Source of the DNA: Candidatus Altarchaeum sp.
Lineage (GTDB): Archaea; Altiarchaeota; Altiarchaeia; Altiarchaeales; Altiarchaeaceae
Direction of reading: 5' to 3'
DNA: 15,078 bases
Assembly: GCA_018260755.1 (NCBI GenBank)
Contig: JAGTWP010000036.1
Coordinates: 1 to 15,078 of the forward strand
Position 1 is the first letter of the stretch; each line of letters opens with the position of its first letter. Positions 2,670-15,000 of the stretch are shown here, one piece after another. The notes beneath the pieces are model-generated. The model had not been told where the DNA came from. It saw only the letters and a list, made by a program, of their open reading frames with translations, and ran no database searches. The translations under genes and the position numbers were made by a program.

Positions 2670-2681
2670 CATATTATAAAA
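2670..2681 (-). promoter_or_regulatory. TATA-like box for tRNA-Gly
   Basis: On the minus strand this reads TTTTATAATATG, centred about 26 nt upstream of the first base of tRNA-Gly, the standard archaeal TATA-to-start distance. It overlaps the stop codon of the nitrilase gene (2674-2676). Confidence 0.5.
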
Positions 2682-3441
2682 TTACAACATCATCTAAAAA
2701 TTTATACTTATCTCTGAGCTTTCTTACCTTTTTAATATTGAGCTCGAACTCAAAAATTTTCCCCTCCTTAAAGTCCTTTGTTTTTCTCTTAACTAAATTT
2801 CCCCACGGGTCATAGCAGGAGGTATTTCCAAATTTCCCGTCAATATAATTATTGTGAATTTCATTTGCATTCACTCCTGCGACATAGCATAAATTTTCTA
2901 TTGCACGCGCCTTCAAAAGTGCCTTCCAGTGTTCTTTTCTTTCATCTGGAAAATTTGCTGGAACAATGATTATTTCCGCACCCTGCTTCATAATTTCTCT
3001 TGCAGTTTCGGGAAATCTTAAATCATAGCAAATCATAAATCCTATTTTGGTTTTAAATTTAGTCCTTTTAAATTCACAGGCAAAAATTTGATCACCTGCC
3101 GAATAGTAAAGGTGTTCATCGCCGTATTTAAAAAGATGGATCTTCCTGTATTCTCCGATTAATTTTCCGCTGTCATAAACAATGACAGTATCAAACGGTT
3201 TATTTCTGCAGCCATTATTTTTCTCTGTGATCCCGCCGATGATCAAAATTTTTCTTTTCTTTGAAATTTCTTTAAGGGTCTGGAAACTCATTCCGCTATA
3301 TTTATTTTCTGCAAAATATAAAGAATGCCTGCTAAACCCTGTTGTGAATAATTCCGGCAGGACAATAATATCTCCTTCACATTTTCCGGCCAGTTCCGCA
3401 GCATTTTCTAAATTTCCCACCACATCTTCATAGATATTCAT
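2674..3441 (-). CDS. omega-amidase-like carbon-nitrogen hydrolase, 5' end rearranged
   Basis: A nitrilase-superfamily amidohydrolase with the catalytic triad visible: E30 (VLPELFTTGF), K100 (EYRKIHLF) and C138 (ICYDLRFPE), plus E109 in DEHLYYSAG. The motifs DEHLYYSAG and HWKALLKARAIENLCYVAG resemble bacterial YafV-type omega-amidases, which hydrolyse 2-oxoglutaramate or 2-oxosuccinamate, part of glutamine transamination and methylthio-oxoacid recycling. The substrate here is inferred. The ATG at 3441 gives 255 residues and lacks the usual first beta strand. That strand (MAQNLKISAIQ) is encoded at 3604-3572, directly before a second copy of MNIYEDV. A 130-bp insertion made of inverted and direct duplications separates the two. 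The ancestral gene therefore probably started at 3604; whether this shortened form is active is doubtful. Confidence 0.82.
   Translation of the reverse strand: MNIYEDVVGNLENAAELAGKCEGDIIVLPELFTTGFSRHSLYFAENKYSGMSFQTLKEISKKRKILIIGGITEKNNGCRNKPFDTVIVYDSGKLIGEYRKIHLFKYGDEHLYYSAGDQIFACEFKRTKFKTKIGFMICYDLRFPETAREIMKQGAEIIIVPANFPDERKEHWKALLKARAIENLCYVAGVNANEIHNNYIDGKFGNTSCYDPWGNLVKRKTKDFKEGKIFEFELNIKKVRKLRDKYKFLDDVVIL
3257..3353 (+). repeat. left arm of a perfect 97-bp inverted duplication
   Basis: This segment of the nitrilase gene is the exact reverse complement of 3454-3550. I compared the two arms base by base and found no mismatch. It is the presumed source, since it lies inside conserved coding sequence. 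Confidence 0.95.
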
Positions 3442-3457
3442 CTGAATTGCCGAAATT
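3421..3457 (+). repeat. 37-bp direct repeat, copy 1
   Basis: Identical to 3551-3587. It encodes, on the minus strand, the junction around AIQMNIYEDV of the nitrilase. It ends where the inverted arm begins, sharing the bases AATT with it. Confidence 0.95.
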
Positions 3458-3550
3458 ATTCACAACAGGGTTTAGCAGGCATTCTTTATATTTTGCAGAA
3501 AATAAATATAGCGGAATGAGTTTCCAGACCCTTAAAGAAATTTCAAAGAA
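3454..3550 (+). repeat. right arm of the 97-bp inverted duplication
   Basis: Exact reverse complement of 3257-3353, inserted between the two copies of the 37-bp direct repeat. In the minus direction, reading from the ATG at 3604 runs into this arm, adds non-native residues and meets a stop, so the long start cannot produce the full enzyme. Confidence 0.95.
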
Positions 3551-3604
3551 CACATCTTCATAGATATTCATCTGAATTGCCGAAATTTTTAAATTTTGAG
3601 CCAT
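3551..3604 (-). pseudogene. displaced N-terminus of the nitrilase gene
   Basis: The minus strand encodes MAQNLKISAIQMNIYEDV from an ATG at 3604. The first eleven residues form the missing beta-1 strand of the nitrilase fold and the rest repeats the start of the ORF at 3441. It then reads into the inverted duplication. Positions 3551-3587 are the second copy of the 37-bp direct repeat. Confidence 0.8.
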
Positions 3605-3732: not shown

Positions 3733-3829
3733 GCCGAGGTAGCTCAGTTGGTTGGAGCGCCAGACTCATAAGTATAACTAATGGCGCTGAGATATCTGGA
3801 GGTCGTGTGTTCAAGTCACGCCCTCGGCA
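3733..3829 (+). tRNA. elongator tRNA-Met(CAT) with a 23-nt intron
   Basis: The mature 74-nt cloverleaf has acceptor GCCGAGG/CCTCGGC, D stem GCTC/GAGC, anticodon stem CCAGA/TCTGG and T stem GTGTG/CACGC, with discriminator A and no encoded CCA. The anticodon CAT is at 3767-3769. The overall sequence matches archaeal elongator tRNA-Met rather than the initiator, which starts with A, or tRNA-Ile2. The intron (3771-3793) sits after A37. CTCA at 3765-3768 pairs with TGAG at 3788-3791, giving a 4-bp helix flanked by the 3-nt bulges TAA and ATA; cutting after the second base of each bulge gives exactly the 37/38 junction. The inner helix is weak, so this is a relaxed bulge-helix-bulge. The last 14 bases overlap the convergent trm5-like gene. 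Confidence 0.9.
3771..3793 (+). other. tRNA-Met intron (relaxed BHB)
   Basis: A 23-nt intron between tRNA positions 37 and 38, the canonical archaeal site, to be removed by the splicing endonuclease. The boundaries are fixed by the bulge-helix-bulge geometry. Confidence 0.85.
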
Positions 3830-4658: not shown

Positions 4659-4780
4659 TGTTGTTTGTACATATCAATAAAATTAGGTGTAAAACAAATA
4701 AAATTGCATACAAAGAATTTAAATTATTTATTATCTAAGTCTAATTTATATTGCTGAATAAAAATTAAAATTTAATAAAT

Positions 4781-4900
4781 CAAAATTTTTAAAAATTTAA
4801 TACAAAATTTAAAAATAATTAAATTAAAATCAAAATTTTTAAAAATTTAATACAAAATTTAAAAATAATTAAATTAAAATCAAAATTTAAAAATTTAATT
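4781..4900 (+). repeat. 50-bp tandem repeat, 2.4 copies
   Basis: The unit starting CAAAATTTTTAAAAATTTAA is identical at 4781-4830 and 4831-4880, followed by a partial, slightly diverged third copy from 4881. It is built from AAATTT blocks and is probably a recent tandem duplication in the spacer; it could bend DNA. Confidence 0.9.
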
Positions 4901-5631: not shown

Positions 5632-7347
5632 ATGGATATAGAAGAAAGACAGTATTTTGAGAAATTTTCGAATGAAATCAGCGGTGCAGGAACTTTAACA
5701 AAGGAAAATGTCCGAAAGACCTTTCTTGAATTAAAAGATTCTGTTAATGAATTGTCGGATGACGACTTGTTTAGCAAAATATTACTGTTTCTTGAAAAAA
5801 AGATTGATGAAGACGAATCGCTTTCTATGGCTCAAAAAGATACAAAATCAATTTCTCTGAAAATAAAAATTTTTAAGAAAAATCCGAATACAGAAAAATA
5901 CAAACTTGTTTATGGTTATCTAACAACTATTGCTGCTGAGACACTTGGAAATTTTTCTGTCCGGTCGGATAAATCGCCTGATTATATAGGTATTGACCTT
6001 GAAAAAGGAAATTTAACCGCAAAAAAAGGCGGAAATTTTGTCGGGACAAATATGTCTGGCGGAAGCATTCACATTCTTGAAAATACAGGAATGTTTGCAG
6101 GTCAAAGAATGTCCGGTGGAAATATTAAAATAGATGGAACTGCGGGAGTTTGTCTTGGAGACGGAATAAAAGGTGGGAAAATCGAGGCAAAAATGGCTGA
6201 TAAAACCGCAAACATGAGCGAAAAGGTCAGTGTTGAAAAATATACTGAAAATACTCCTTTGCAAAAAATAGATAAAACATCGCTAATAAGTAATTATGAT
6301 ATTGAAAGATATGCGAAAGAAGCACTTAAAAACATCAACGAATTTGAAAAAAGAAATGCAATGACTAAAAAAGAGAGTGCAGGCACATTAAACAACATTG
6401 ATGCCGGTAAGGAAGTAAGCGAAGAAGTTAGTAAAGAAATCAACTCGCTTAAATTTGAAAAAGTAAAGCAAGAAACAGGTAATTTAACACATAATTTTAA
6501 TGAAAAAAGCGAGGAACAAAACAATAAAATTTTGTTGAGCAATATTATACAGGAAATTTATGGTGATGTAAATATAGAAAAAATACAAGGGATTGACTAT
6601 GTCCGTGAGAGTGAAAGAAATACAAATCGGAACGAATCTTTTGGTAAAATTTTTGTTACCGGACAGAAAGAAGAAGAGAAAGACAGATACAGGGATGAAA
6701 ATTTTGAACGTTTGAAATTGCTTTTTGAGTATAAAGAAGCAAACAAAGATGAAATTTTAACGATAAATTTAGGTATTAATGACATTGAAAAAATTCTGAA
6801 TAATGTAACTCCTTTAACTCTTTTAGAGAAGATAATTATAGGATATTTGACATCGGTTGCAGCGGAAAAATTGGCAATAAGAGGAGAGGCATTGGTTATT
6901 GAAAAAAATTTTGACTATATCGGAATAGAAATGAAAGACGGAAAAATTTTAGTTAAAAATGCAGGGGATTATATAGGTAAAAATATGTATGACGGAGAGA
7001 TAAAGGTTGAAGAGGATACATTGGGAAATGTCGGTGAAGGTATGGTCGGGGGAAAAATTGAAATCGCAGGAGATGTTTATGGTGATTATGTCGGGTGGAG
7101 GATGGAAGGAGGGGAAATTTTAATCAAAGGTAGATGCAGAAATTTTATCGGACTGAGAATGATCGACGGAAAAATCACAGTTGAAAAATCCGCAGGAAAC
7201 GGAATTGGCGAGAGTATGGAAGGAGGGGAAATTTTAATCAGAGGAAGATGCGGAGTTGTTGGAAAGTGGATGAAAAAAGGAATAATACGGATTAAGGAAG
7301 GTATAATAAGTAAGGAAAGAGAAGGAGGGGAAATTTATACATTATAA
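5632..7347 (+). CDS. two-module GXGXG (FwdC/GltB-C-like) beta-helix protein
   Basis: A 571-residue cytoplasmic protein with two copies of a GXGXG right-handed beta-helix module, the fold of the glutamate synthase C-terminal domain and formylmethanofuran dehydrogenase subunit C. Module 1 (about 93-185) starts with YGYLTTIAAETLGNFSV and has coils such as NFVGTNMSGGSIHI, MFAGQRMSGGNIKI and CLGDGIKGGKIEA. Module 2 (about 403-560) starts with the similar IGYLTSVAAEKLAIRGEA and has six or more coils of the form x-x-x-G-x-x-M-x-G-G-x-I-x-I. A charged, probably flexible linker (about 190-390) joins them. Known GXGXG domains are structural parts of larger enzymes; none of those partners is nearby. It follows atpD by 19 bp, suggesting co-transcription. 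Function unknown. Confidence 0.8.
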   Translation: MDIEERQYFEKFSNEISGAGTLTKENVRKTFLELKDSVNELSDDDLFSKILLFLEKKIDEDESLSMAQKDTKSISLKIKIFKKNPNTEKYKLVYGYLTTIAAETLGNFSVRSDKSPDYIGIDLEKGNLTAKKGGNFVGTNMSGGSIHILENTGMFAGQRMSGGNIKIDGTAGVCLGDGIKGGKIEAKMADKTANMSEKVSVEKYTENTPLQKIDKTSLISNYDIERYAKEALKNINEFEKRNAMTKKESAGTLNNIDAGKEVSEEVSKEINSLKFEKVKQETGNLTHNFNEKSEEQNNKILLSNIIQEIYGDVNIEKIQGIDYVRESERNTNRNESFGKIFVTGQKEEEKDRYRDENFERLKLLFEYKEANKDEILTINLGINDIEKILNNVTPLTLLEKIIIGYLTSVAAEKLAIRGEALVIEKNFDYIGIEMKDGKILVKNAGDYIGKNMYDGEIKVEEDTLGNVGEGMVGGKIEIAGDVYGDYVGWRMEGGEILIKGRCRNFIGLRMIDGKITVEKSAGNGIGESMEGGEILIRGRCGVVGKWMKKGIIRIKEGIISKEREGGEIYTL

Positions 7348-13590: not shown

Positions 13591-15000
13591 CTATTCAGTA
13601 TTTTTACATTCTAAAAAAGATTTTGCTGTTTTTCTAACATATGAATCTGAATCATTTGCTAATTTTTCTAAAATATCTTTTGCGTTTGGAATTCTATCAA
13701 AATTTGCTATCAAAGCTTTAACAACCCTTCTTCTGACATACTTATCTTTATCATTTGCTAATTTTTCTAAAATATCTTTTGCATTTGGAATTCCATCAAA
13801 GTCAGAGAGCAATATATTTGCTATATACCATCGTACATAATTATTTCCATCATTTATCATTTCTTCTATAATTTTTGCAACATTTGGAATTTTATTGATA
13901 TGCGTTGTTAAAACCTTAACAGCAGCTTCTATAACACCATTATCCTTATCATTTAATAATTTTTCTACAATTTTCTCTGAATTTGGAAATCTGTCAAAAT
14001 TTTCTGAAAGAAGCATGCATAAAGCAAGTTTATTTTCACTTCTATATTCTGATAAAATCCTTTCTATAACCCCAGAAATTCGTTTTGCCTTTGGTTCATC
14101 TATTTCTCCTGAAATTAAATCTCTTAACATTTGTATTTCCATACTCTCGCTTTTACTTGAAATTTCATTAATGAAATCTTTTGAAAATTTATCCTTCTGT
14201 CCAATCTTAGGATATTCTTTAATTAGCCTTATTATTTCATTTCTAACTTCTGCATCTTCATCTTGAGCGAGTTTTTCTAATATTTTACTCGCATTTGGAA
14301 TTTTATCAAAATTATACCATATTGTAGAAATAACATTATATCTAACATCCCTATCTTTATCGTTTGCCAATCTTTCTATAATTTTTGCAACATTTGGAAT
14401 CTTATCAAAATGGTCTCTTAAAACTTCAACAACATTATATCTAACATCTTTACTTTCATCATTTGCCAATCTTTCTATAATTTTTGCTGCATTTGGAATC
14501 TTATCAAAATGGTCTCTTAAAACTTCAACAACATTAACTCTAACACCCCAATCTTTATCATTTGCCAATCTTTCTATAATTTTTGCTGCATTTGGAATCT
14601 TATCAAAGTTTACTTTTATAGCCTCACAAATAATTCCTCTTACAGGAGAATCTGCATCTCGTGAATATTTTTCAATAAGTTTTGCAGCATTTGGAATCTT
14701 ATCAAATGCATAAACAATAGGGGTTGTTGGAGAATCTGGCCAGAACCTAAAACCTTCGCCATATACAATAGATCTTTTTTTTGCATCTTCATTCAATTTA
14801 TAAATTACCAAAAATGCAAATGTAGTTCCGATATAAAGAACAACTGCATCAGCCAAAGAAATCTTAAGTATTAATATTGTTATAGTATCAATAAAAAGTA
14901 AAATAAAAAAGAAGAATATAATTTCAGGCGCTGATTTTAATGATTTTTTTATACCTTTAATACTCAATTTAAAGATTTGCATTCTTATTTTCTGAGCCAT
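13591..15000 (-). CDS. membrane-anchored HEAT-repeat protein
   Basis: A 469-residue protein. Two membrane segments (about 26-47 and 51-68) anchor a large cytoplasmic array of 33-residue HEAT-like repeats. Five start at residues 99, 132, 165, 198 and 231, and four more at 335, 368, 401 and 434, each of the form FDKIPNAAKIIERLANDKD then VR. The intervening 264-334 is a roughly two- to three-repeat stretch that has diverged. HEAT arrays serve as protein-binding scaffolds; the partner is unknown. Units 2-4 are very similar at DNA level. The start codon lies inside the end of the upstream gene (32-bp overlap), implying translational coupling. The stop is 46 bp from the second repeat element. Phycocyanobilin-lyase-type HEAT proteins are an alternative label, but no such pathway is present. 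Confidence 0.8.
   Translation of the reverse strand: MAQKIRMQIFKLSIKGIKKSLKSAPEIIFFFFILLFIDTITILILKISLADAVVLYIGTTFAFLVIYKLNEDAKKRSIVYGEGFRFWPDSPTTPIVYAFDKIPNAAKLIEKYSRDADSPVRGIICEAIKVNFDKIPNAAKIIERLANDKDWGVRVNVVEVLRDHFDKIPNAAKIIERLANDESKDVRYNVVEVLRDHFDKIPNVAKIIERLANDKDRDVRYNVISTIWYNFDKIPNASKILEKLAQDEDAEVRNEIIRLIKEYPKIGQKDKFSKDFINEISSKSESMEIQMLRDLISGEIDEPKAKRISGVIERILSEYRSENKLALCMLLSENFDRFPNSEKIVEKLLNDKDNGVIEAAVKVLTTHINKIPNVAKIIEEMINDGNNYVRWYIANILLSDFDGIPNAKDILEKLANDKDKYVRRRVVKALIANFDRIPNAKDILEKLANDSDSYVRKTAKSFLECKNTE
14311..14607 (-). repeat. three near-identical 99-bp coding repeats
   Basis: Units 2-4 of the HEAT array. The stretch from TTTGCCAATCTTTCTATAAT through the following Phe-Asp-Lys-Ile-Pro-Asn codons is almost unchanged between units, including synonymous positions, so expansion is recent or maintained by recombination. 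Confidence 0.85.

Follow-up and report, generated by a model that had tools for sequence, protein, structure and literature searches.

A perfect inverted duplication within a nitrilase-family gene of a Candidatus Altarchaeum draft genome has the form of a recent short-range template switch

A nitrilase-family gene in a draft genome of Candidatus Altarchaeum is interrupted near its 5' end by a 130-bp insert built from copies of the gene itself. We consider it somewhat probable that it arose very recently, as a mutation of the archaeal chromosome by short-range template switching, and we see an even chance that it is a genuine, very young mutation at the level of the population, with an unusually long copied tract and a return to the template behind the point of departure. 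The window analyzed here is a whole contig of 15,078 bases from an archaeal assembly of 1.32 Mb in 78 contigs (85% complete), and it carries the archaeal markers V/A-type ATP synthase subunit D, a TYW2/Trm5-like methyltransferase and ribosomal protein S27e.

The preliminary description of this locus reported a perfect 97-bp inverted duplication combined with a perfect 37-bp direct repeat, and both were recovered base for base (Table 1). The arms at 3257-3353 and 3454-3550 are exact reverse complements of each other (97/97) with a 100-nt spacer. They are maximal, as any extension brings a mismatch; tolerating one mismatch lengthens them to 103 nt (3257-3359 and 3448-3550). The direct repeat (3421-3457 and 3551-3587) is likewise perfect and maximal. 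From the base composition, ∼1e-44 inverted repeats of 97 bp are expected per genome, which excludes chance as the origin of the arms. As 130 is no multiple of three, the insert causes a frameshift in the gene.

Table 1. Features of the interrupted gene, in window coordinates.
Feature	Position	Strand	Basis
Surviving CN_hydrolase body, 255 aa from the ATG at 3439-3441	2674-3441	-	PF00795
Donor arm (original copy) of the 97-bp inverted repeat, within the coding region of the nitrilase	3257-3353	+	Points 3 to 2, four-point model
Homologous site used in the first switch, with AATTCCGGCA (complementary to TGCCGGAATT) set against TGCCGAAATT at 3448-3457	3350-3359	+	
First copy of the 37-bp direct repeat, from re-entry point 4 to departure point 1	3421-3457	+	Exact match
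Frame from the original start codon, now 58 aa (MAQNLKISAIQMNIYEDVFFEISL...DEYL), ending in TGA	3428-3604	-	
New inverted arm (reverse complement of 3257-3353)	3454-3550	+	Exact match
130-bp insert, absent from all congeners, made up of 3257-3349 copied as its reverse complement and of 3421-3457 copied a second time	3458-3587	+	
Second copy of the 37-bp direct repeat	3551-3587	+	Exact match with 3421-3457

A comparison with related genomes had been proposed, and in all three other genomes of the genus (G001, G002 and G003) the gene is uninterrupted. Each of them reads straight through ...ATATTCATCTGAATTGCCGAAATTTTTAAATTTTG... with a protein start of MxQNLKISAIQMN. The uninterrupted flanks ...GCCGAAATT|TTTAAATTTTG... 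are present in all three, and the insert junction was found in none of them. The surviving body shares 83% protein identity with G003 and 64–65% with G002 and G001. At the DNA level the gene is 88% identical to that of G003, and the donor arm (3257-3353) is 88.7% identical to the equivalent position in the G003 gene. As the congeners have the uninterrupted gene, the event must be an insertion in the lineage or the assembly of the window and not a loss elsewhere. The insert is specific to one assembly, and one genome represents the species. The congeners also differ at the C-terminal end of the nitrilase (window 2674-2740; L017, L018), where G001 and G002 have in-frame stops or change frame close to the end.

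The layout of perfect 97-bp arms on either side of a 100-bp spacer, with the start codon of the body frame inside the spacer, would also suit an invertible phase-variation switch, in which recombination between the arms inverts the spacer and so toggles the gene between on and off. However, when we simulated inversion of the spacer, neither orientation gave a full-length frame, which largely refutes this reading. A switch would also leave the direct repeat unexplained, the congeners are without the insert, and our searches of window proteins did not identify a recombinase. We therefore regard a switch as very improbable. We give just as little credence to the insertion of a small, MITE-like mobile element with target-site duplication. 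The inserted segment is indeed bracketed by the 37-bp direct repeat, but it repeats the adjacent gene in reverse complement and is no separate element. The mobile-element reading was rejected because copies of the insert were found neither elsewhere in this genome nor in the related genomes; the remaining matches of the 701-base query were short, nearly all of them to an AT-rich stretch downstream of the gene. An exact search of viral contigs found neither insert junction.

The product of the interrupted gene matches PF00795 (CN_hydrolase) with 149 bits against a curated cut-off of 23.2, which places it in the nitrilase superfamily, and no NCBIfam model reached its cut-off. The translation contains PELF, YRKIHLF and CYDLRFPE, which are candidate motifs for the Glu-Lys-Cys catalytic residues of the family. 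Protein relatives in the named genome collection are distant only. One CN_hydrolase gene was found in the window genome and exactly one in each of the three congeners, and no uninterrupted second copy was found in the same assembly.

Without the 130 bp at 3458-3587 the gene forms a single 266-aa frame with the start MAQNLKISAIQMNIYEDVVGN. With the insert, the 58-aa frame that begins at the original start codon overlaps the 255-aa body frame by 14 nt. It had been proposed that MAQNLKISAIQ is split from the enzyme body. The start is separated from the body, but only MAQNLK is strictly severed, and owing to the direct repeat the ISAIQMNIYEDV codons flank the insert on either side. Since a stop codon precedes IISAIQ in the body frame, the start of the body must be M12 (3439-3441). 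It is conceivable that the body is translated by re-initiation at this overlapping ATG, which would yield an enzyme without its first strand, and we expect that the insert impairs the enzyme. The transcript is predicted to form a perfect stem of 97 bp (minimum free energy -202 kcal/mol, z = -20); this stem follows from the repeat and does not in itself point to a function.

Several other features of the contig were observed. An apparent tRNA-Met gene with a CAT anticodon and a short intron lies at 3733-3828; the intron of the congeners is longer and variable, and ARAGORN in bacterial mode made no call for the gene. The AT-rich intergenic sequence at 4777-4888 holds two perfect tandem copies of a 50-bp unit, with a perfect overlap of 62 bp; this is another very recent local duplication on the contig. 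A GXGXG-type repeat protein at 5632-7347 resembles formylmethanofuran dehydrogenase subunit C, at scores below the curated cut-offs. Finally, a repeat protein at 13591-15000 consists of 99-bp (33-aa) units, some of them near-identical, which suggests recent duplication of units.

The structure of the insert can be derived from the ancestral sequence by the two template switches proposed in the preliminary description (departure from 3457, entry at 3353, copying back as far as 3257, return at 3421), and the fit to the sequence is exact. In the four-point model of Loytynoja and Goldman, a return point before the departure point yields one inverted and one direct repeat (PMC7954356). Here points 1, 2, 3 and 4 lie at 3457, 3353, 3257 and 3421, giving the event order 3-2-4-1. 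The fragments L-1, 2-3 and 4-R of the ancestral sequence account for every base, and the reverse-complement source (97/97) lies 100 nt from its copy, inside the range of tens to hundreds of bases that the model asks for.

According to this model, DNA synthesis of the + strand would reach 3457, where the 3' end (TGCCGAAATT) would pair with its own nascent strand or with the sister strand at AATTCCGGCA (3350-3359). From there 97 bases would be copied backward, ending at 3257. The 3' end would then return to the normal template at 3421, 36 bases upstream of its departure, and synthesis would continue. The predicted outcome is one perfect inverted repeat, one perfect direct repeat and a frameshifting insert of 130 bp.

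The AATT described earlier at the first switch does match, and it is the 3' end of a longer homology between TGCCGAAATT and TGCCGGAATT (9/10). One of the 10 bases is mismatched, and the final four are exact. At the return junction (switch 2) no homology was found. Both homology sites are also present in G003, and thus the quasi-inverted match is older than the event. The chance of such a match is ∼5e-5 for an arbitrary pair of sites, uncorrected for the choice of sites. This figure supports an entry at the first switch guided by homology. Synthesis in the + direction seems likelier, as the other strand would put the homology-free junction first. We infer the direction of synthesis, the template strand and that the event took place in a cell and not in a tube.

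The two kinds of copy together comprise 134 duplicated bases without a single difference, which bounds any later divergence at about 2.2%, compared with about 11–12% between the window species and G003. The event is therefore either young or artificial, and the earlier view that the perfect copies are very recent or an artefact is upheld.

In the artefact reading the organism never had the insert, which would have arisen from a switch of strands in the course of whole-genome amplification or low-input library preparation, or from a join made in assembly. Perfect copies are also what an artefact would show, a single assembly carries the insert, and the broken gene is a conserved single-copy gene. 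Runs of N in the assembly (scaffold gaps or masking) count against a mutation in the cell, as does the length of the copied tract: in great apes, short-range template switches have a median 2-to-3 tract of 12 nt and a longest one of 128 nt (PMC7954356). Junction 1 is an inverted join at complementary bases, and chimeras formed during multiple displacement amplification (MDA) are primed at complementarities of 2–21 nt (Lasken and Stockwell; PMC1855051). The window event shares with these chimeras a local inverted join and a few complementary priming bases. However, MDA chimeras are described as two-segment joins, of which 85% are inversions with an intervening deletion (PMC1855051), whereas the window event has two junctions with a clean return to the template, and a duplication in place of any loss.

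An MDA-amplified assembly should also show more inverted joins. We scanned 535 kb of the assembly (41%), N excluded, for perfect inverted repeats with arms of at least 22 bp and spacers below 500 bp, and found no other, which weakens the MDA reading. The other inverted repeats in this genome are mostly AT-rich and located on a single contig (L041), with spacers above 800 bp. In the relatives the same scan covered 328 kb in G003, where one close perfect inverted repeat of 24 bp was seen, and 79 kb in G002. Among the 57 of 78 contigs read, none is smaller than 5.3 kb, which suggests a typical binned metagenome and not a single-cell assembly. In addition, a rare artefactual molecule should be outcompeted by normal reads during assembly unless coverage is very low. 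The earlier suggestion of single-cell amplification thus finds no support in the lone repeat, the metagenome-like contigs or the two junctions without loss. The repeat scan, the contig sizes and the two-junction form all lower the probability of an artefact, while an isolated library or assembly error is possible; overall we rate an artefact as a serious but less probable explanation. Weighing both sides, we lean modestly towards a mutation in the cell over an artefact of the laboratory.

The event belongs to a known kind, the short-range template switch, and needs no new biology either way. Should it prove real, it would be a clean case in which both junctions and the state before the event are known, and a useful data point for template switching during archaeal replication, on which a limited literature search found no dedicated paper; replication errors are hardly studied in the host group. 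If it is an artefact, it is a warning that copying errors can pass for 'split genes' in draft genomes.

The insert resembles quasipalindrome-associated template switching in Escherichia coli, in which the 3' end, at a short imperfect inverted repeat, takes the nascent strand as its template and then returns (PMC7202029). The classic E. coli events turn an existing quasipalindrome into a perfect one through small changes, whereas here the pre-existing match spans just 10 nt and 130 bp were gained. The likeness to the four-point events extends to the nearby reverse-complement copy, the entry at a short homology, the return to the original template and the single large insertion (PMC7954356). Unlike the great-ape events, the copy in the window is 97 nt, near the long end of their range, and lies in an archaeal coding gene.
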